The position numbers were made by a program, and so were the translations under genes. Positions 4,131-22,731 of a stretch of DNA of 23,035 bases are shown piece by piece (position 1 is the stretch's first letter; each line of letters starts with the position of its first letter). Where the stretch lies: positions 1 to 23,035 of IMG/VR virus record IMGVR_UViG_3300005533_000023. One strand, 5' to 3'. The DNA is from a virus. The notes under the pieces were generated by a model. That model worked only from the letters and a program-made list of their open reading frames with translations. It did not search any database and was not told the origin of the DNA.

Positions 4131-4468
4131 ACGGCCGCCAATGGTTCGCCAGCGGTGCGCTGCGCCGGCTGTTTCCGCAATACAACCGCCGCATCGAGCT
4201 GGCCAATGCCTATCAGACGGTCTTTGATAGCCCCGAGGGCAGCCGCGTGCTGCGCGACCTGTTGACGGCCGGCGGCCTGTTATCGACGAGCGTCGTTGAA
4301 GGCGATGCGCAACTGACCGCCTACAACGAGGGCAAGCGCGCGCTGGCCCTGCACATCCTGCACCGGCTGCGATGGTCTGAGGGCGAGCTGATGCAGCTCG
4401 GCCAAGAGCTGACGGCGGAAGAGATCGAGGCCCGCGAGCAGGCAATGAGCCAGGAGACGATGACATGA
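4127..4468 (+). CDS. Bbp19-family phage protein
   Basis: A 113-residue protein. The pattern fits the Bbp19 family named after Bordetella phage BPP-1: an aromatic FDSPEGSRVLRDLLTAGGLL segment (residues 33-52) followed by AYNEGKRALALHILHRL (residues 65-81). The role of the family is not established; members sit between portal and scaffold or capsid genes in podoviruses, as here. It starts by ATGA overlap and ends by ATGA overlap, so it belongs to the coupled chain 3403-4971. The call rests on the motif seen by eye plus synteny. Confidence 0.8.
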   Translation: MNGRQWFASGALRRLFPQYNRRIELANAYQTVFDSPEGSRVLRDLLTAGGLLSTSVVEGDAQLTAYNEGKRALALHILHRLRWSEGELMQLGQELTAEEIEAREQAMSQETMT

Positions 4469-4668
4469 GCATCCTAACGGCAAAGGCGCGCAAAGCCATT
4501 CCACGCCGCGATTTTGCGATCCCGGAGAAGGCCCCCGGCCCGGGCAGCTACCCGATCGAGGATCGCGCGCATGCGCGCAACGCGTTGGCGCGCAGCGCCG
4601 GCAAGCCGGTGGCCGCCCGGGTGCGCCGCGCCGTTGAACGGAAATATCCGGGGTTGGCGAAGTCGTGA
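4465..4668 (+). CDS. Small phage protein with YPIED...HARNALAR motif
   Basis: A 67-residue basic protein starting by ATGA overlap. It contains FAIPEKAPGPGSYPIEDRAH followed by ARNALARSAGK and a helical, positively charged C-terminus (VRRAVERKYPGL). This FAxP...YPIxDxAHARNALAR pattern is a recurring short domain in phage proteins (DUF6582-like, recalled without a search), found alone or fused to structural proteins. Its function is unknown. It ends by GTGA overlap with the next gene. Confidence 0.75.
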   Translation: MSILTAKARKAIPRRDFAIPEKAPGPGSYPIEDRAHARNALARSAGKPVAARVRRAVERKYPGLAKS

Positions 4669-4971: not shown

Positions 4972-5876
4972 GCGGCGCGCAAGGGATTACCGCCGCCGGC
5001 CCGAGCAGCGCGCCGCCCGCGCCGAACGCACCCGCGCCGCAAGCCGCGGCCCCCGAGGACCCGACCGCCGCGTTCCTGGCGCAGGTACCCGAGAACATCC
5101 GCGGCGAGGCCTATTTCAAGGACATTAAAGATGTCCCGACCCTCGCGCTCAAAGCCTACCACCAGGCGAAGCTTATCGGCCGCGACCCGGAAACGATGGT
5201 CGTCATTCCTGGCCCCGACGATGCCGAAGGGTGGGCGCGCCTCTGGCAAAAGCTCGGCCGGCCGGAAAAGCCCGAAGAATACAAATTCGCCGCGCCTCAA
5301 CTTCCCGAGGGCCTGACCCTCGACGAGAGCCTGCATCAGGCATTCACCGCCAAGGTGCACGAGCTGGGCTTGTCGCAGCGTCAGGCCGAACAGCTTTATC
5401 AGTGGTGGAACGAGCAGCGGATCGGCGCGCATAACGCGTTCCGCGCGCAGGAAACCACGCGCCAGCAGGCGGCTATCGCCCAGCTGCGCGCCGATCCCGA
5501 ATTCGGCGGCGCGGCCTTTGAGCAGAACGTCGAAACAGCGCAAGCCGCTCTGGCGCACTACGGCACGCCGGAGCTGATCGCCGAGCTTGACCGCACCGGC
5601 CTCGGCGACCATCCCGCCCTGATCAAGGTTTTCGCGAAGATCGGCCGCGAGCTGCAGGAAGACGGCTTGATCGGCCGCGCTGGCGAAGGCGCGGCGGCGA
5701 TGACGCCGGCCGAGGTCCAGCAGCAGATCAACGCTAAGCGCGCCGATCCCCAATTCCGGGCGCGCTATTATTCGCGGGACCGGAACACGCGCCAGGCCGC
5801 GATCGCTGAACTGAGCGCGCTTTACGATATGTTGGCCGAGGGCAACGCCGCGATGCGCGGCGAAAGCCCGGGCTGA
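4968..5876 (+). CDS. Capsid assembly scaffolding protein (putative)
   Basis: A protein of 302 residues starting by ATGA overlap. It has a Pro/Ala-rich disordered N-terminus (residues 1-45), then AYFKDIKDVPTLALKAYHQA and LIGRDPETMVVIPGPDDAEG, and WxKLGRPEKPEEYKF. This is the 'D(V/I)PTLxKAYxxxxxLIG...GRPxxPxxY' signature seen in podophage scaffold-type proteins placed before the capsid gene. The remainder is mostly helical and Glu/Gln/Ala-rich, which suits a scaffold that guides procapsid assembly and is then lost. Position directly before the major capsid gene agrees. The family has no activity I can show here. Confidence 0.82.
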   Translation: MSGAQGITAAGPSSAPPAPNAPAPQAAAPEDPTAAFLAQVPENIRGEAYFKDIKDVPTLALKAYHQAKLIGRDPETMVVIPGPDDAEGWARLWQKLGRPEKPEEYKFAAPQLPEGLTLDESLHQAFTAKVHELGLSQRQAEQLYQWWNEQRIGAHNAFRAQETTRQQAAIAQLRADPEFGGAAFEQNVETAQAALAHYGTPELIAELDRTGLGDHPALIKVFAKIGRELQEDGLIGRAGEGAAAMTPAEVQQQINAKRADPQFRARYYSRDRNTRQAAIAELSALYDMLAEGNAAMRGESPG

Positions 5877-8134: not shown

Positions 8135-10857
8135 TGCTGCAGGACCTGCAAATCTCGAACTTCACCGCCGGCGAGCTGTCGCCGCGCATGAAGGGCCGCA
8201 CCGACTACCAAAAATATTACCAGGGCCTCGATGTCGAGCGGAACATGGTCACGATGCCGCAAGGCGGCGCGACCAAGCGGCCCGGCACGATGTTCGTCGC
8301 ATTAGCCAAGGACCAGCAGGCCGCCCCGTTCGCGGTGCGCCAGCTGCCCTTTATTTTCTCGCATGTGCAGGCCTACACCCTCGAGCTGGGCGGCGGCTAT
8401 GTCCGCATCTACGCCAATGACGGGCAGGTGTCGAGCGGCGGCTCGCCGGTCGAGATCGCAGTGCCATACCAGACAAACGAAATCTGGGACGTGCACATCA
8501 CCCAATCGGCCGACACGTTGTTTCTTGCCTGCGGTACCGGCGGCCCCAACGGCACCGGATACCCGCTCGCGACCATCACCCGCTCGGGGGCCACGACCTG
8601 GAGTTATCAGACCTATCCGCTGCTCGACGGCCCCTATACAGACCTTAACAGCGTGCCGCAGACGACGCTAGCGCTCTCAGGCAACCAGCAGGCGGTAACG
8701 GGTGCCGCGAATAACGGTTCCGGCGCGATCCGGCTCACGGTCGGCAGCACCACCGGCTTCGCCAGCGGCCAGGCGGTGACGGTCTCGCTTGTGGAGGGAA
8801 CGACAGAAGCGAATGGCCAGTGGACCGTGACCGTAGTCGATGGCACGCATCTCGACCTCAACAACTCGGTATTCCAAAATGCGTGGACGCAAGGCGGCAA
8901 GGTGTTTGCCTGCGCGACGCCAACCACGATCACCGCGAGCCAGACCGCCGGCATCAACGGCGGTGCCGGCTTCCAGGCGAGCGACGTCGGCCGCGCGCTG
9001 AGGATCAACACGACAGACGGCACTAACACAGGATGGTGCTGGTTTGTCATCAACACAGTGATGAGCCCGACGCAGGTGACCGCGACCCTGCAGGCCGCCA
9101 CGATCACGACCCAGGCGCAGGCGCAGGGCGGCCTGCCCACGTCGGAATGGCAGCTAGGCGCCTTCGGCCCGAGCCTCGGCTATCCCTATGTCGTGGGGTT
9201 CTGGCAGCAGCGGCTCACGCTCTTTGGGAACGCCGCGGTCCCCAATGCTGTGTGGCTCTCGAACACCGGTGCCTTCGACGTGTTCGGCACGACGAACGCC
9301 GATGGCACCGTGACTCCATCGAACGGCCTCTATTGGGTGATCGACACCACCTCGAGCAACGGCCAGATCAACGCCGCGCGATGGGTGATCACCGCCGGCA
9401 GCGCCGAGGCGCTGCAGCTGGGCCTCGGCACCTCCGGCAGCGAGGCGATCTTGCAGGCGGCGACCACGTCGGCCGCCCTGAGCGCCACGAACGTACAGGT
9501 GTACCAGGAAACGGCCTATGGCTCGGCCGCCAATGTGCCGCCCCTGCGGATCGGCAAGGCAGTGCTGTTCGCCGATGTGACGGGCCGAAAAATCCGCGAG
9601 TGGGCTTATTATTGGCAAGCCTTCGGCTACCTGGCGCCGGACAAGACAGCGGAAAGCGAGCACATCACCCGCGGGCCGCCGGGAACGCCGCCGACGAGCT
9701 GGGGCCTGCGCTGGATGGCCTATCAGCAATCGCCGCACCAGGTGATCTGGGCGGGGCGGAACGAGGGAGGCCTCATCTCGATCACCTACGACCGTGATCA
9801 ACAGATTTGGGCGCCCTCGCAGCACGTGCTCGGCGGCCAGTACTATGGCGGCCCGCCAATCGTCGAGAGCGGATGCGTCATCCCGTCTCCCGATGGAACC
9901 TATGACGAGCTGTGGCTTGTGGTGTTGCGCACGGTCGCCGGCCGGCCCACGCGCACCATCGAGGTGATGACACGATTTTACGACGCCATGCCGCAAGATC
10001 AGGCATGGTTCCTCGATTGCGCAATCGCCTCCCCGCTCACCTATCCTGACGCCACGCTGACAATCTCCGGGCTGAGCGGAACGAGCCCGCTTCCCGGCAC
10101 GGCCGCGCTGACCATGACGCCGGCGTGGGCCGGCACCGGCACCTTCAGCGCCAACGCGCCGGTGTTTTCCGGGGGCGCCCCCGATTTGGGAAAGATGATC
10201 CGCGTCAATGGTGGCCGGGCGGTGGTAACCGGCGCGATTTCGACCACCGCAGTCACCGCGCAGGTCACCACGCCGCTGTTGAGCCTCGCCCCCGCCGCCA
10301 GCGGGCAGTGGAGTTGTACTGCGCCACGATCGAGCTTCAGCGGGCTGGATTACGCCGTCGGCGAAACGGTGCGGGTGCTGGCCGATGGCGCCGACTTCGG
10401 CGAGCAGGTAGTGCCGGGCGCGCCAACCCCGGGCGAGATACAATTGCAGTTTCCGGCCAGCTATGTGGTCGCCGGATTTCCCTACACCCCGGTGCTGGTA
10501 TCGGAGCCGTTCGAGGCGCAGCGCGCCGCTTTTGCCGCCGCGCGCGGCAAGGCCAAGCGCTTGGTGCACCTCTATCTGCGATTTTACGAGACGGTCGGCG
10601 CGATCTTCGGCCGCCGGCTGACCGATCCGACATCCGGCCAGGTCAGCGACATTGTCGAGCGGCTGCCCTGGCGACAGCCAGCAAACCCGCTCAACGTGCC
10701 GCCGCCGCTCTTCTCCGGAATCCGCAGGCTCGACGCGCCAGGCGGCTTCGATCGAGAGGGCCAGGTCATCGTGACCCAGGACGGCCCCTTGCCGCTGACA
10801 GTGCTATCGATCAACGCGTCGGTCGAGGTTGGCGATGTCCCCATCACCGCGCAGTGA
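8134..10857 (+). CDS. Tail nozzle-type protein (tail tubular protein B-like)
   Basis: A protein of 907 residues. The N-terminus, FTAGELSPRMKGRTDYQKYY followed by RNMVTMPQGGATKRPGT, is the signature 'xGELSPrlxGRxDxxKYxxGxxxxxNmxxxpqGgxxkRPGT' of large podophage tail proteins at the gp12/nozzle position. It is larger than T7 gp12 (794). Residues of about 185-330 look like an inserted beta-rich Thr/Ser/Gly/Val domain. The C-terminus resumes with HLYLRFYETVGAIFGRR, a conserved closing segment of this family. It should form the distal tube of the short tail. The order adaptor, nozzle, internal proteins is canonical. Confidence 0.85.
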   Translation: MLQDLQISNFTAGELSPRMKGRTDYQKYYQGLDVERNMVTMPQGGATKRPGTMFVALAKDQQAAPFAVRQLPFIFSHVQAYTLELGGGYVRIYANDGQVSSGGSPVEIAVPYQTNEIWDVHITQSADTLFLACGTGGPNGTGYPLATITRSGATTWSYQTYPLLDGPYTDLNSVPQTTLALSGNQQAVTGAANNGSGAIRLTVGSTTGFASGQAVTVSLVEGTTEANGQWTVTVVDGTHLDLNNSVFQNAWTQGGKVFACATPTTITASQTAGINGGAGFQASDVGRALRINTTDGTNTGWCWFVINTVMSPTQVTATLQAATITTQAQAQGGLPTSEWQLGAFGPSLGYPYVVGFWQQRLTLFGNAAVPNAVWLSNTGAFDVFGTTNADGTVTPSNGLYWVIDTTSSNGQINAARWVITAGSAEALQLGLGTSGSEAILQAATTSAALSATNVQVYQETAYGSAANVPPLRIGKAVLFADVTGRKIREWAYYWQAFGYLAPDKTAESEHITRGPPGTPPTSWGLRWMAYQQSPHQVIWAGRNEGGLISITYDRDQQIWAPSQHVLGGQYYGGPPIVESGCVIPSPDGTYDELWLVVLRTVAGRPTRTIEVMTRFYDAMPQDQAWFLDCAIASPLTYPDATLTISGLSGTSPLPGTAALTMTPAWAGTGTFSANAPVFSGGAPDLGKMIRVNGGRAVVTGAISTTAVTAQVTTPLLSLAPAASGQWSCTAPRSSFSGLDYAVGETVRVLADGADFGEQVVPGAPTPGEIQLQFPASYVVAGFPYTPVLVSEPFEAQRAAFAAARGKAKRLVHLYLRFYETVGAIFGRRLTDPTSGQVSDIVERLPWRQPANPLNVPPPLFSGIRRLDAPGGFDREGQVIVTQDGPLPLTVLSINASVEVGDVPITAQ

Positions 10858-14157: not shown

Positions 14158-17100
14158 ATGGCCAATCCGTTCGACGCCCCGCCCGAACAAGCCAATCCCT
14201 TTGACGCGCCGCCCTCGACGCTGGCGCCGATCGGCCACGCCCTGGACGAGGCGCTCGGCCTTTCGAAATTCGCCGCCGGGTTCCGTGAAGGGTGGGGTGC
14301 CTCGCCGCCCGGCGAGGCCGCGACGCGAGCGCTGCGCGAGGCCGGCATTCTGCCGGATTACCAGCGCGGCCAGACCGGGATCATGCGCGAGATCAACGAG
14401 GCGCTGTTGCGGCCGCTATTGACGGCAGTAGACGCGGCGGCGCGCCTGCCTTACGCGACCGCCCGCGGGCTCGCCGAAGCGGCGCCGCTGATCGGCGGCC
14501 CGATCGCGGCGGCGATGGAAGCCTTTCCCGCCGCAAGTTTCACCGGGCTGCCCAACGTGCCGGGCGCCGGGCTGGCGGCCGCCGAAGCGGCGCGAGTGAT
14601 TGGACACGGCGAGGCCGGATGGAAAGGCTTGCCGGAGCGGCCGGCAGAGGCCGAACCGCCGACCGAAGCACCCGCGGAGCCGCCCTCGGCACCGCCGGCG
14701 GCGATCGCGGTGGCGGAGAGCGAGCCGCCGCCGGCACCGCAGATCAACGTGCACGCGGCGGCGCGCTCGATCGACCCCCAGACGATGGAGCAATACGACC
14801 GGCTCAAACAGCAGCGCGCGATCTTCCGCCAGCAGCTCGACGAATTGAGCGAGCTGCGCTCCCGCCAGGCGGAGGAGCTGGCGCCCGGCAGCGCGCGGAT
14901 TCCGCGGCTGCAGGAGCAGATCGCCGCCGCTGACGCGCGCCGCCGCGCGATCCTGCAAGACCGGCTTGACCGGCTGCAAGCGCAGCGCTCGGCATGGATC
15001 GAGGATTACCTCGGCCATGACACGCCCGAAATGGCGCGGGTGCGGCAGGACTTGATGCAGACCGATTTTCAGATGCGCGATCTTGCCGAGGCTGTCTCGG
15101 CGATCTACCGCCAGGCGCGCCAGATGGTTCCCGAGGAGATAAGCGCTGAGCAAGCCACGCCGGAGACACTCGAGCGACCGCCGCCGCCGCCGCAGGCTCC
15201 GCCGCCGCAGGCTCCGCCGCCGCAGGCTCAGCCGCCGCAGGCTCCGCCGCCGCAGGCTCCGCCGCCGCGCCCGACGACGACGCTACCATTACCGCCCGGC
15301 GGGATTGCCGCCGACGTAGCGAGGCAATTGATGGCCGCCGGCCGGCCAGCCGACGAAGCGCAAGCCGCGGCGCAGATCGTGACGGCCTACTACGATACCC
15401 GCGCGCAGCGCTTCCAGGGCCGGCTTGGCACGGCCGAAGACCTCTATGCGCGTGAGGCCGCGACCATCCGAGGCGCCGAACAGGGCGGCCCGCGAGGCGT
15501 GGCGCGGGGCCGCACTGTGATGCGGAACGGCCGCGCGATCGTGACCTTGTTCCGCCGCGCCGACGCCTCAACTTTTGTGCACGAGACGGCCCACCAATGG
15601 CTCGAGCAGCTGCTTGCCGATGCCGAGCGGCCCGAAGCCCCCGAGCAACTCCGCGCCGACGCGCGCACGGTTCGCGACTGGGCGCAGGAACCGACCGGCC
15701 CACTGCCCCGCGCGGCACACGAGCGCTTCGCGCGCAATTTCGAGGCCTATCTGCTGGAGGGCGTAGCGCCGTCGCGGCGCCTGGCCAGCGTATTCGCCCA
15801 GTTCCGGCTATGGCTGACGGAAGCCTATCGCGCGCTCAACCGCGTGCGGGCGCCGGTCGAGCCGCAGCTGCGCGCGATCTTCGACCGGATGCTGACCACG
15901 GCACCCGTCGAGCCGGTCATCGCTCCCGAGCAGCGCGTTCCCGATCTGGCGACAGCAATCGAGGACGCCGCGGAGCAAGCGCGGAACGAGGACGCCGAAG
16001 AGATCGCCGAGCAGGTCAGCGAGGCGCGCGCGCGAGCGGCCGACCGTCTAAGCGAGGGAGCCCAGAATGATCGGGAGCGAGAGCGACCGCATCCAGCACC
16101 ACCAGCGGCAGATCGAGGCCTTGCACCACGAAGTCAGGTGGCTGACGGTGGCGCAGATGAACCCGAAATATTCAATGTCGGATCGCGCGGTGTTCCGGCT
16201 CCTCGAGCGATCGGCGAGGGCGGAAATCAAACTGAGACGCAAGGCGATCGCGCACCTGGAGAGCAGCCCCAACCAGGCATAACGGTTACGCTGCGCCCGC
16301 TGAGTCGGCGGCCGCAAAGCCCCTATGCCGAGGTGCCCCCGGCGCCGGTAACGCTCAGCGAATTCCTGCGTCGGGCGGGCGGTGTGCAGAACCAGGACGG
16401 CGAGCTGACCCGCTACCTGCGGCGCAAGCCCGGTCTGATCAACCGCCGCGGCATGCCGCTCGATGAGGCGACGCTACAAGCGTGGGAAGCCGGCTATTTA
16501 CCGGGCCGCGAGCGGCCGGAGATCAGGGTGCTGCTCCAACATCTGGAGCGCGAGCTGACCGACGGCCAACCGGTTTATTCGGAGGCAGATCGCGACAAGC
16601 TCGCGGCGTGGGAGGCCGCGATCCAACACAATCGGGAGATCGATCGCCTCGGCCAGATGCTGGGCGTCGATCCGCGCGATTTCACCCAGGAGCAATTCCT
16701 GAACCTGACGGCCGAGATGCTTCGCGGCGAGGAAGCCGACGAGCTGGAGAAATCGCTGAGCGACGCGACCGAGGCCGAGATCGCGGAAGCTGAGCGCCGC
16801 GCGCAGGAGTGGGCGGAAAGCCGCGGCGACGCCTGGGAACCCGATTATTTTGCTGGGCCGCCGCGCACATGGGAGGACCTTGAGAATGAAGAGCGAGCAG
16901 AGGCAGAGGCTTACGGCCGTCTACCGCCGAGCGCTGGCGGCACTGCACCATCCCGACCTGCCGCCGGAGATCAAGGCTCTTTACAAGCGGGCGCTCGACA
17001 AAGCCGACCTGGCGCTGGGGCTGGATCACGCCAGAATGCGGCGCCAGGCCCTGGCAGACCTGGCGCCGACCGTCTCCCGCCCGGATCAGACCTGATCGAC

Positions 17101-19317
17101 AAGGCCGGCAACATCCGGCTCGACCTGCTCGACCTGCCGGAACAAGTCGATCAGGTGATCCGGGACGTAGCCGAGCGCAATAGCGATTTTTGGACCGAGC
17201 GGCGCGGCCGCATGTCGGACGGCGAAATCCTCGATCTTGCCCAGGCGCTCGGCCGCGATCCGGCCTTTCTCGACGCCAAGCGGATCGGGGAGGCATTCAA
17301 CGCCGAGGAAATCCGCGCCGCCCGCGGATTACTCAAGGCCGCCGCGGTGCAGGTATACGAGGGCTTTGTGCGGGTGCGCGCGGCCCTGATGGCCGGCCAG
17401 GACGCCGAGCAGGACACCGTCGCACTGGCGCGCAGCATCGCGCGCCTCGAGATGATACAAGGCAAGGTGGCGCAAGCCACGGCGGAGTGGGGCCGCGCCG
17501 GCCGAGCGCTGCAGATGCTCGCGAGCGAAGCGCCGGAAGACATCAACGAGTTCCTGCGTCAGAACACCGGCCGAACTTTCTACCAATTACAGGAAATGGC
17601 GCGCCGCGGCGTGTCGTTCCGCGACCCCGCCCAAGTATCCCGCTTTGTTACCGACACGGCGGGCGGGAAAATCACGAGGGCGGTGCTTTATTATTACATA
17701 AACGCATTAATCAGCGGCCCCTTTACTCACGCGAGATATAGCGTCGGCAACGCCTTAAATGCGCTATGGACACCGCTGGTGGAAATTCCGCTGGCCGCCG
17801 CCTACGGCAAGATGACCGCCGCCGAAAATCGCGTCTTTCTCGGCGAGGCCGGCGCGCAGCTTTATGCGCTGCTTAAAGGATCGAGGGATGGATGGCGCGC
17901 CGCGATCGAGGCCTATCGGACCGGCTACAGCGGCCCGCTGCGCGGCGAGCGGCCGCCGTCAAGCGTCACCGGGGTGGCCGCGGCGCCGCTCGGCCCGTTC
18001 AGCCGAGCCATCGGCGTTCCTTCCCGCGCTGTGTCCGCGATCCACTCGTTCTTTAAGACGCTGCGCTACGAGCAGCAAATCCAAGGGCTAGCCTACCGAG
18101 ACGCTATGGCGCGCGGCCTCGAGGGCGACGCTTTTGCCCGGCATGTCGCCTATCTCGAGCGCAGCCCGACCCCGGCAATGGTCGAGGAGGCGACATCAAC
18201 CGCGCTGCGCGAGCTGTATATGAGCCCGGTAGATTACGACAGCTTTGCCGGCCATTTGGTGCGCGCGACCGATCGCAACATCCTGGCGAAGATCGTGATC
18301 CCGTTCCTGCGGATCGGCAGCCAGATCACGCGCCAGGCTTTCATCGAGCACACACCGCTCGGCCTCGCCTCGCCCACAGTCCGCGGCCGCCTGGCCGGCG
18401 GCGGCCCTGCCGCGCAATTACAGGCCGCCCGGATCAGCGCCGGCGTGGCGCTGATGGGCGTCACAGTCGGCATGGCGGCCGAGGGGCTGATCACCGGCGA
18501 CGGCCCGGACGACCCCGCGCAGCGCGCGGTCTGGCGGCTCAACCATCGACCGAACACGCTGACGATCGGCGACATCACGATCCCGTTCATGGGGCTCGGC
18601 CATCTCGGCATGCTCATGAGATTCACGGCGAACATGTACGAGACCGCCGCCGGCTGGCGGCAAAACGACGGCGAGAAGCTCGCGGTCAGCTTTTTGAACG
18701 GCGTCAGCCGCGCTGTCCTAGACGACAATTTCATGCGCGGCCTCAAAGACGCGCTCGATGCCGTCTATCACTGGGAGGAATACGGCCCGAGATTTGTCAG
18801 GAACTTCGTAGTCAACTGGTTGCCCTATTCGATCGGCCTAGGGCAGACCGCACGTCAGATGGATCCCTATCAGCGCGAGGCGCGCAGCATCTTCGATGCC
18901 GCGCGCGAGCGGATACCGTTCCTGCGCGAGACCCTACCGCTGATGCGGGATGTATTCGGCGAGCCTATTCCCGCCGGCGCGCCGCTGGCGCGCTACGCCA
19001 ATGACCCCACCGTGCTGACCTTGGAACGGCTACAGATCGGGATCGCCAGGCTGCGCCCAAAGATCCGCGGCGTGGACCTCGACCCGCAGCAATACGACGA
19101 TTACGCGCGAATTGCGGGTCGGCTGACCAAGATGCGGCTCGACGCCTTGGTGACCTTGCCAAACTTCCACACCCTCGCCGTCACCCAGCAAGTCGAGCTG
19201 ATCCGCCACACCATCGCCGACAGCCGCGAGGCGGCGCGAAATATCGTCATGGGGATGTATCCGGCAATCGTCACCCAGGCACTCCAAGCGAAGGCGCAGG
19301 ACGCGGGGCAAAAATGA
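14158..19317 (+). CDS. Giant ejection / polyvalent-type internal virion protein with zincin-like motif
   Basis: A protein of 1719 residues in the position of T7 gp16. Visible layout: residues 1-19, two ANPFDAPP copies; about 60-155, hydrophobic; 205-325, coiled-coil (RLQEQIAAADARRRAILQDR); 342-371, PPPQA repeats; 470-570, H475-E-T-A-H479 followed by HERFARNFEAYLLEGVAPS (521-539), a pattern seen in zincin metallopeptidase domains of phage polyvalent proteins; 710-905, a helical domain with TLSEFLRRAGGVQNQDGEL and EAGYLPG; 980-1719, a long region opening with LIDKAGNIRLDLL and holding hydrophobic stretches (YYYINALISGPFTH; VALMGVTVGMAAEGL). The role is probably ejection into the cell with the DNA, possibly forming the inner-membrane channel. 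Residues about 637-708 and 910-979 are linker that overlaps two nested genes. Confidence 0.85.
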   Translation: MANPFDAPPEQANPFDAPPSTLAPIGHALDEALGLSKFAAGFREGWGASPPGEAATRALREAGILPDYQRGQTGIMREINEALLRPLLTAVDAAARLPYATARGLAEAAPLIGGPIAAAMEAFPAASFTGLPNVPGAGLAAAEAARVIGHGEAGWKGLPERPAEAEPPTEAPAEPPSAPPAAIAVAESEPPPAPQINVHAAARSIDPQTMEQYDRLKQQRAIFRQQLDELSELRSRQAEELAPGSARIPRLQEQIAAADARRRAILQDRLDRLQAQRSAWIEDYLGHDTPEMARVRQDLMQTDFQMRDLAEAVSAIYRQARQMVPEEISAEQATPETLERPPPPPQAPPPQAPPPQAQPPQAPPPQAPPPRPTTTLPLPPGGIAADVARQLMAAGRPADEAQAAAQIVTAYYDTRAQRFQGRLGTAEDLYAREAATIRGAEQGGPRGVARGRTVMRNGRAIVTLFRRADASTFVHETAHQWLEQLLADAERPEAPEQLRADARTVRDWAQEPTGPLPRAAHERFARNFEAYLLEGVAPSRRLASVFAQFRLWLTEAYRALNRVRAPVEPQLRAIFDRMLTTAPVEPVIAPEQRVPDLATAIEDAAEQARNEDAEEIAEQVSEARARAADRLSEGAQNDRERERPHPAPPAADRGLAPRSQVADGGADEPEIFNVGSRGVPAPRAIGEGGNQTETQGDRAPGEQPQPGITVTLRPLSRRPQSPYAEVPPAPVTLSEFLRRAGGVQNQDGELTRYLRRKPGLINRRGMPLDEATLQAWEAGYLPGRERPEIRVLLQHLERELTDGQPVYSEADRDKLAAWEAAIQHNREIDRLGQMLGVDPRDFTQEQFLNLTAEMLRGEEADELEKSLSDATEAEIAEAERRAQEWAESRGDAWEPDYFAGPPRTWEDLENEERAEAEAYGRLPPSAGGTAPSRPAAGDQGSLQAGARQSRPGAGAGSRQNAAPGPGRPGADRLPPGSDLIDKAGNIRLDLLDLPEQVDQVIRDVAERNSDFWTERRGRMSDGEILDLAQALGRDPAFLDAKRIGEAFNAEEIRAARGLLKAAAVQVYEGFVRVRAALMAGQDAEQDTVALARSIARLEMIQGKVAQATAEWGRAGRALQMLASEAPEDINEFLRQNTGRTFYQLQEMARRGVSFRDPAQVSRFVTDTAGGKITRAVLYYYINALISGPFTHARYSVGNALNALWTPLVEIPLAAAYGKMTAAENRVFLGEAGAQLYALLKGSRDGWRAAIEAYRTGYSGPLRGERPPSSVTGVAAAPLGPFSRAIGVPSRAVSAIHSFFKTLRYEQQIQGLAYRDAMARGLEGDAFARHVAYLERSPTPAMVEEATSTALRELYMSPVDYDSFAGHLVRATDRNILAKIVIPFLRIGSQITRQAFIEHTPLGLASPTVRGRLAGGGPAAQLQAARISAGVALMGVTVGMAAEGLITGDGPDDPAQRAVWRLNHRPNTLTIGDITIPFMGLGHLGMLMRFTANMYETAAGWRQNDGEKLAVSFLNGVSRAVLDDNFMRGLKDALDAVYHWEEYGPRFVRNFVVNWLPYSIGLGQTARQMDPYQREARSIFDAARERIPFLRETLPLMRDVFGEPIPAGAPLARYANDPTVLTLERLQIGIARLRPKIRGVDLDPQQYDDYARIAGRLTKMRLDALVTLPNFHTLAVTQQVELIRHTIADSREAARNIVMGMYPAIVTQALQAKAQDAGQK
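15181..15270 (+). repeat. 15-base tandem repeat coding PPPQA
   Basis: Five full units of CCGCCGCCGCAGGCT (the fourth begins CAG in place of CCG) plus a degenerate sixth, coding PPPQA PPPQA PPPQA QPPQA PPPQA PPPRP. It makes a stiff proline-rich spacer between the coiled-coil part and the zincin part of the giant protein. Copy number is likely to vary between relatives. Confidence 0.9.
16067..16282 (+). CDS. Nested gene in +1 frame inside the giant ORF (first)
   Basis: A 71-residue frame wholly inside the 14158-19317 gene, one frame forward. A strong ribosome site GAGGGAG (16054-16060) lies 6 bases before ATG 16067. By hand count 10 of 71 codons end in A or T, as in the other genes here. The giant frame over the same bases has about 43 of 72 A/T-ending codons and turns into Pro/Gly/Gln/Glu linker. 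Usage switches back sharply after TAA 16280-16282. The product is a charged helical protein (HHQRQIEALHHEVRWLTVAQ; FRLLERSARAEIKLRRKAIA) with no membrane segment. I do not recognise a family. Expression is inferred, not shown. Confidence 0.72.
   Translation: MIGSESDRIQHHQRQIEALHHEVRWLTVAQMNPKYSMSDRAVFRLLERSARAEIKLRRKAIAHLESSPNQA
16886..17095 (+). CDS. Nested gene in +1 frame inside the giant ORF (second)
   Basis: A 69-residue frame again one frame forward of the giant gene. Ribosome site GGGAGGA (16871-16877) lies 8 bases before ATG 16886. An upstream in-frame ATG at 16850 lacks such a site. By hand count 11 of 70 codons end in A or T, against about 36 of 70 in the giant frame, which here reads as Gly/Ala/Pro/Arg linker (SAGGTAPSRPAAGDQGSLQA). 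The product is a helical basic protein (RQRLTAVYRRALAALHHPDL; PPEIKALYKRALDKADLALG). Function is unknown. Its stop TGA 17093-17095 falls just where the giant frame resumes a conserved-looking segment (LIDKAGNIRLDLL). Confidence 0.72.
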   Translation: MKSEQRQRLTAVYRRALAALHHPDLPPEIKALYKRALDKADLALGLDHARMRRQALADLAPTVSRPDQT

Positions 19318-21988: not shown

Positions 21989-22065
21989 TCGCACCATTCT
22001 ATCGACCCGGCCAACAAAGGCGCCCTGCCCTGCCGCCGATGCCATCTGGCCTCCGAAGAACGACG

Positions 22066-22731
22066 ATGCGGCAAGCGCTTGACCTCTTTTGCGGGGTCGG
22101 CGGGGCCTCGGTCGGCTTGGCGCGCGCTGGCTTCGAGGTGACCGGCGTGGATATCCGCCCGCAACCGCGCTACCCCTTTCGGTTCATCCGAGCCGACGCG
22201 CTGGCGCCGCCGTTGTGCCGCGACGATTTCGCGCTGATCTGGGCGAGCCCGCCCTGTCAGGCGTTCTCCGCGGCGAACGCTGCGGCGCGGGCTGCCGGCC
22301 GCGTGCATCACCCGAACCTGATCCCCGCCGTCCGCAGGATGCTCGGCTTGGCGCGCGCACTGACGGTCATCGAGAATGTCCCGTTCGCGCCGCTGCGCCC
22401 CGACCTAATCCTCGACGGCACGATGTTTCCCGCGCTCCGGGTCGTCCGGCGCCGATGGTTCGAAACGAGCTGGTGGCCGGGTCTCGCGCCGCCCTCGCGG
22501 ATCAGGCGCGGCATGATCGCAGCCGGCTACAGCTGCGTCGCCGGGGGAGGGCGCAGCAACCATGCCCCGGTCGCCGCTAATGCTTGGCACACGACTGAAG
22601 CGCGGGCCCGCGCAATGGGAATCGACTGGCCGGCGACGCGCGACGAGGTCGCGCAGGCGGTACCGCCCGCTTATGCCGAATTCATCGGCCGCAGTGCCGC
22701 GGCCGTGCTCGACCAGCGGGGCGCCGCATGA
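22066..22731 (+). CDS. DNA (cytosine-5) methyltransferase, compact
   Basis: A 221-residue protein (an in-frame ATG at 22039 would add nine residues; neither start has a strong ribosome site). The C5-methyltransferase motifs appear in order: motif I LDLFCGVGGASVGL with FCGVGG at residues 8-13 (AdoMet binding), motif IV PPCQAF with catalytic C64, motif VI E103-N-V, an R128-R-R-W-F resembling motif VIII, and motif X PPAYAEFIG near 200-208. Only about 65 residues lie between motif VIII and X, so the target-recognition region is short. No restriction enzyme lies beside it. The likely role is self-methylation of phage DNA against host restriction; the site is unknown. Confidence 0.9.
   Translation: MRQALDLFCGVGGASVGLARAGFEVTGVDIRPQPRYPFRFIRADALAPPLCRDDFALIWASPPCQAFSAANAAARAAGRVHHPNLIPAVRRMLGLARALTVIENVPFAPLRPDLILDGTMFPALRVVRRRWFETSWWPGLAPPSRIRRGMIAAGYSCVAGGGRSNHAPVAANAWHTTEARARAMGIDWPATRDEVAQAVPPAYAEFIGRSAAAVLDQRGAA

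Follow-up and report, generated by a model that had tools for sequence, protein, structure and literature searches.

Small genes predicted in the +1 frame of inter-domain linkers in a giant phage virion protein gene

Two small open reading frames within a giant gene

We analyzed IMG/VR virus record IMGVR_UViG_3300005533_000023, a 23-kb stretch of viral DNA (23,035 nt, referred to here as the window), and focused on two small open reading frames (ORFs), N1 and N2, that lie within the gene for a giant internal virion protein. The giant gene (14158–19317, on the + strand, as are all of the features within it) is 5.2 kb long and of the polyvalent type. It encodes 1719 aa, its frame is open through the nested regions in all relatives, and its product matches PHROG 9880 (2e-41) and the internal virion protein family PHROG 6651 (9e-19). 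N1 (71 aa, 16067–16282) and N2 (69 aa from ATG to TGA, 16886–17095) both occupy the +1 frame of the giant ORF. Each is preceded by a putative ribosome-binding site: GAGGGAG (16054–16060) lies 6 nt 5’ of the N1 ATG, and GGGAGGA (16871–16877) lies 8 nt 5’ of the N2 ATG. The starts of the two genes are 819 nt apart and the gap between the ORFs is about 600 nt, in agreement with an original prediction, made from the sequence alone, that described N2 and its GGGAGGA site as a second +1-frame gene some 600 bases beyond the first.

Both ORFs fall at domain boundaries of the giant protein. The A2 domain (15328–16047), which carries the zincin-type metallopeptidase motif HETAH (HEXXH) in the context FVHETAHQWLE, stops just 5’ of N1; it has no Pfam match and was assigned from the motif and from relatives only. 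It is followed by the B domain (16300–16887), found in all six genomes that carry N2, and by the C domain (17110–19314), a T7-type internal virion protein D-like C-terminal region that begins about 15 nt past the N2 stop codon. Across the nested genes the long frame encodes a low-complexity inter-domain linker of Gly, Ala, Pro, Gln and Arg, as had been predicted. We also observed that the bases at 16871–16890, which hold the ribosome-binding site and start codon of N2, specify a conserved motif when read in the long frame (EDLEN in both the window and the relative L013, EELEN in the relative L032) and are therefore constrained by both frames.

ORFs of 60–80 codons are common in the GC-rich window, and length alone is therefore no evidence for N2. 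Codon scores were calculated in 150-nt windows after training on the other genes of the window. In the whole of the giant gene, the +1 frame scored positive only around 16067–16282 and 16886–17095, and the score of the long frame fell negative at both nested genes, so that the switch in codon bias predicted for N2, after the pattern of N1, was borne out. The evidence that N2 is genuine consists of this bias and of its conservation in five other genomes, in all of them in the +1 frame.

Distribution and selection in related viruses

IMG/VR scans with the single proteins P0001, P0002 and P0003 returned only the near-identical contig IMGVR_UViG_3300027706_000028, which has no differences from the window within the giant gene and therefore gave no substitution test. 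Relatives were reached by aligning the C domain with distant phage proteins. This search yielded relatives at 50–53% identity; these carry N1, and L013 carries N2 as well, again in +1. A search with an N1 alignment added a dozen further contigs, in which each copy lies within, and in +1 relative to, an ORF 1400–2600 codons long, and a scan of a genome collection added one more nested N1, on a contig binned to a Patescibacteria metagenome-assembled genome. A scan of the C-domain family gave 80 loci, among which all fusions of A2 and C carry N1, N2 or both; the C-only relatives examined have neither. Two of these fusions, L062 and L087, were at one point taken to lack a small gene, but this was rejected because the first profile had missed a divergent N1, detected in the +1 frame with a 28-member N1 profile (E = 5e-12).

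Including the window, we count 29 copies of N1 and six of N2 (window, L013, L032, L038, L055 and L125, in each case with B before it and C after it) in 32 viral giants. All 35 copies are small same-strand ORFs fully inside the larger ORF, in its +1 frame and at the same boundaries between domains, and none of them interrupts the long frame; the proposed position in inter-domain linkers thus holds well beyond the window. An unsupervised scan of giants of the C-domain family found 36 islands favoring +1, a few of which are artefacts of misplaced gene starts, and none favoring +2. In a control scan of other large genes, for which the script labeled many giants ‘other’, islands outside giants were mostly wrong-strand ORFs or wrong starts. 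BPP-1-type giants with an A2 domain (L007–L009) had no nested islands. L026 has a B-like domain and no recognizable N2, and in L065 the upstream B domain is followed by a different small ORF in the +1 frame, which we counted within the N2 set of the long-frame openness test below and nowhere else.

For N1 copies in pairs with more than 60% nucleotide identity, the ratio of nonsynonymous to synonymous differences per site (pN/pS) was 0.52 for the nested frame and 1.21 when the same stretch was read in the long frame, and the nested-frame value was the lower one in 76 of 77 pairs. N2 gave the same direction at greater divergence. The C domain, taken as a control, showed the reverse of the nested genes, with the long frame constrained and the +1 frame not. 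The original prediction had named a conserved linker protein over a degraded nested frame as the outcome that would speak against it; the opposite was seen.

The long frame is also maintained. When the nested proteins were held fixed and codons were drawn from the usage of each giant gene, the chance of an open long frame in every copy came to ~1e-48 for N1 (28 copies) and ~1e-10 for the N2 set (6 copies), values that overstate the case because the copies, which are not independent, were treated as such and phylogeny was ignored. Single-genome probabilities of 0.001–0.05 were frequent. None of the 34 ORFs in this test had an open third frame; in L125 that frame is, by chance, open too. Because nested-frame pN/pS is lower and the long frame is open (35 of 35) more often than the nested codons would allow, both frames are kept, for different reasons: the nested frame for its amino-acid sequence and the long frame for its openness. 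On these sequence data, N1 and N2 are almost certainly real nested genes. Functionless chance ORFs in GC-rich DNA would account for a length that is common in the window, but they are refuted by the codon bias, the conservation in 32 viruses and the lower nested-frame pN/pS, and we give this explanation practically no credence.

We propose that N1 and N2 would be translated by internal initiation from their own Shine–Dalgarno sites within the mRNA of the giant protein. Shine–Dalgarno sequences and start codons were found at N2 starts, with AGGAGG or AGAGGA at the position of the N2 site in L013, L032, L038 and L125, and Shine–Dalgarno-like sites with start codons are present at most copies of the two genes. 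Under programmed frameshifting, the small frame would be read as a continuation of the upstream domain, and the product would be a truncated fusion isoform in place of a separate small protein. This reading fits the identity of strand and frame in all genomes, but the initiation signals just described argue against it, as do stop codons within a few codons 5’ of the N1 ATG in many genomes. In L021 the stop codon directly precedes the ATG, which excludes frameshift entry from upstream, and an account in which the nested frame is entered from the upstream frame seems highly improbable. As for the choice of register, a nested gene in +1 places its third codon bases, which are G/C-rich here, at the first positions of long-frame codons. 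The +1 register is permissive because these bases land where stop codons, all of which begin with T, need a T, and it is the register least likely to break the long frame. This rule is a consequence of the genetic code and agrees on the whole with the simulated openness probabilities.

Linker length and the origin of the nested genes

We measured the linker from the conserved FDR(M/L)(L/I) motif near the end of A2 to the start of B. It is 148, 138 and 150 aa long in three relatives with N1 and 36, 39 and 37 aa long in three without it; that is, N1 and about 100 aa of linker are absent together, and the extra linker length belongs to the N1 gene. N1 is absent from three of the six N2 genomes and from no others (p about 0.004, phylogeny ignored). 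These three genomes lie in three separate places inside the N1-bearing clade of the C-domain tree, and the simplest reading of this scatter is repeated loss, or replacement with a B–N2 cassette. The original prediction had offered two scenarios, small genes inserted such that the long frame stayed open or linkers evolving under small genes, and had suggested comparing linker lengths among relatives. For N1, the covariation of gene and linker supports these scenarios; for N2, the comparison is confounded because N2 and domain B always occur together.

Under classical overprinting, the small genes would have arisen de novo in the +1 frame of a long disordered linker that was already present. The low complexity of the long-frame linker is consistent with this, and so is a preference of de novo viral overlapping genes for +1, as ascribed to Willis and Masel in the review PMC8227390. 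However, the linker of N1-less relatives is the shorter one, and the small protein is the ordered, conserved partner while the linker is the unconstrained one. For N1, we found no host sequence of the same length preceding the nested gene, although the N1-less genomes look like losses. Since linker and N1 come and go together, plain overprinting of an older linker is disfavored, and we regard it as unlikely. A joint history of linker and nested gene as one evolutionary unit is, in our judgment, likely.

How such a unit was first assembled is a separate question. In one scenario the protease-type, B and C modules were originally encoded by separate genes with small genes between them; the large genes merged when their stop codons were lost, and the small ones stayed where they were. 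The nested genes sit exactly on module junctions, C without A2 occurs in a sister clade of viruses that lack N1 and N2, and N1 is found throughout the A2–C clade save for three genomes, all of which counts in favor of gene fusion. Against it, in no virus did we find A2, N1 and C encoded separately, and whole-collection searches with N1 and N2 gave nested copies only. Fusion is a reasonable possibility that we do not favor outright: the gene may have been caught between large genes as these fused, or it may have moved into a joint that was already there.

Because N1 is absent together with most of its linker and N2 always accompanies B, evolution of the giant protein seems to proceed by exchange of domain cassettes, each with a small gene in its joint. 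The N1 and N2 profiles align weakly in register (hhalign P 0.004–0.027, equalled by 2 of 200 column shuffles). This alignment, and the absence of N1 only where N2 is present, suggests, without proving it, that the two are distant paralogues with interchangeable roles, and that they may stand in for each other. The two cases had been called independent in the original prediction; that there are two stands, while their independence is made uncertain by this possible paralogy. More speculatively, giant ejection proteins might in general exchange domain cassettes with one +1 accessory gene per joint, N1 and N2 being interchangeable cofactors of which at least one is present in 32 of 32 clade members examined.

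Products, known systems and other joints

The N1 product is confidently predicted to form a two-helix hairpin (predicted local distance difference test score, pLDDT, 93.4). For N2, AlphaFold2 placed helices at residues 3–20, 27–44 and 49–57 (pLDDT 70.6), and the fold is probably similar to that of N1, with two or three helices. Its net charge, by residue count, is about +5, matching the helical, basic product that had been predicted. Neither protein had a convincing match among Pfam, PHROGs or PDB sequences, and tblastn against cultured phages found none; by sequence comparison, N1 and N2 appear to be two undescribed protein families. Assignment of N1 to phrog_8252 (5e-4) was dropped because the other N1 members do not match it.

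We suggest that the products would be small accessory proteins with a helical-hairpin fold, which would belong to the same late virion module and be made beside the giant protein. From their place in the virion operon and their link with A2–C giants, they may tentatively be seen as binding partners or chaperones of the giant ejection protein. The explanation as a whole, which joins selected nested genes, internal initiation, a linker–gene unit and a partner or chaperone role, seems to us very probable from the sequence evidence. Several observations weigh against it. N2 pN/pS is high (0.6–0.9), because the known N2 copies are divergent; several N1 copies have a weak ribosome-binding site or none of consensus type; the support for N1/N2 paralogy is weak; and the N2 linker is inseparable from domain B for testing. 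In addition, a fold search of PDB and BFVD with the N1 hairpin gave nothing at E ≤ 0.001, only generic helical hairpins, and the functional reading draws on where the genes lie and on the predicted fold.

Phages are already known to carry genes nested in another frame, embedded spanins foremost, and overlapping genes are a classic viral feature. Lambda Rz1 is nested in the +1 frame of Rz with its own start and is often missed by annotation (PMC6139136). N1 and N2 are likewise fully nested, in another frame and with their own starts, in a larger phage gene; unlike Rz1, they lie in linkers of a giant internal virion protein and are predicted to be soluble helical hairpins. The window copies of both contain no cysteine and hence no lipobox, so that we found neither the nested lipoprotein signal nor, the host gene encoding an internal virion protein, the host membrane anchor of an embedded spanin. 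In phiX174-type overlaps (gene E in D) and other viral overprinted genes, overlap is complete and internal and both frames are maintained (PMC8227390). N1 and N2 differ in that the small frame is ordered and conserved, the linker length depends on N1, and the host is a large gene of a double-stranded DNA (dsDNA) tailed phage. The giant protein itself, with an HEXXH domain within a multidomain phage protein, resembles the polyvalent proteins with zincin-like metallopeptidase domains, whose peptidases were proposed to process the polypeptide (Iyer et al., 2017, PMC5512222); keywords for linkers and overlapping genes gave no hit in the text of that paper. In its C domain, and in the order of the surrounding genes (tail-tube proteins, lysozyme-type internal protein, giant, tail fibre), the giant gene agrees with T7-type internal virion protein D genes, although the C-only relatives examined, unlike the A2–C giants, lack N1 and N2. 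We found no earlier description of genes nested within those for internal virion proteins, subscription journals being outside the scope of the search.

Few long, conserved nested genes have been documented in dsDNA tailed phages, and gene callers often pass over them. The two putative families hold the same position across divergent viruses, and how long a protein linker is depends on whether the gene is there. This offers a direct, testable case of a hidden gene shaping a protein joint, together with a simple codon-position rule for the use of +1, and the joints of giant multidomain virion proteins may be where to look for missing small phage proteins.

Other joints also contain small +1 ORFs with coding bias. 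L025 (7098–7313), L028 (7212–7400) and L041 (7988–8152) each have one in the same giant gene, just 5’ of the protease domain, with products unrelated to each other and to N1 and N2. The cultured Limnohabitans phage DC33 (L118) has two, at 4415–4630 (preceded by AAGGAG) and 5264–5452, nested in the gene for a 3125-aa giant annotated as a single hypothetical protein. The DC33 record is classed in the Inoviridae, a misfit with its 39-kb genome and gene content. These unrelated ORFs, candidates by coding bias, suggest that joints may repeatedly host small genes. A +1 coding-bias island is also seen in a BPP-1-type giant gene (L119, MW202640; 5867–6109), where it ends near the protease domain, and in L099, a relative that lacks this domain, a different small ORF in +1 (8549–8791) lies 5’ of the C domain.

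Elsewhere, the window has a podovirus-type late module with portal, capsid, tail-tube proteins, lysozyme-type internal protein, giant and tail fibre. An ORF at 230–1438 bears repeated segments of the type AESGAAADTVTETAQLAL, and a probable C5-cytosine DNA methyltransferase (22039–22731; motifs DLFCGVGG and SPPCQAFS) is encoded 3’ of the tail genes.
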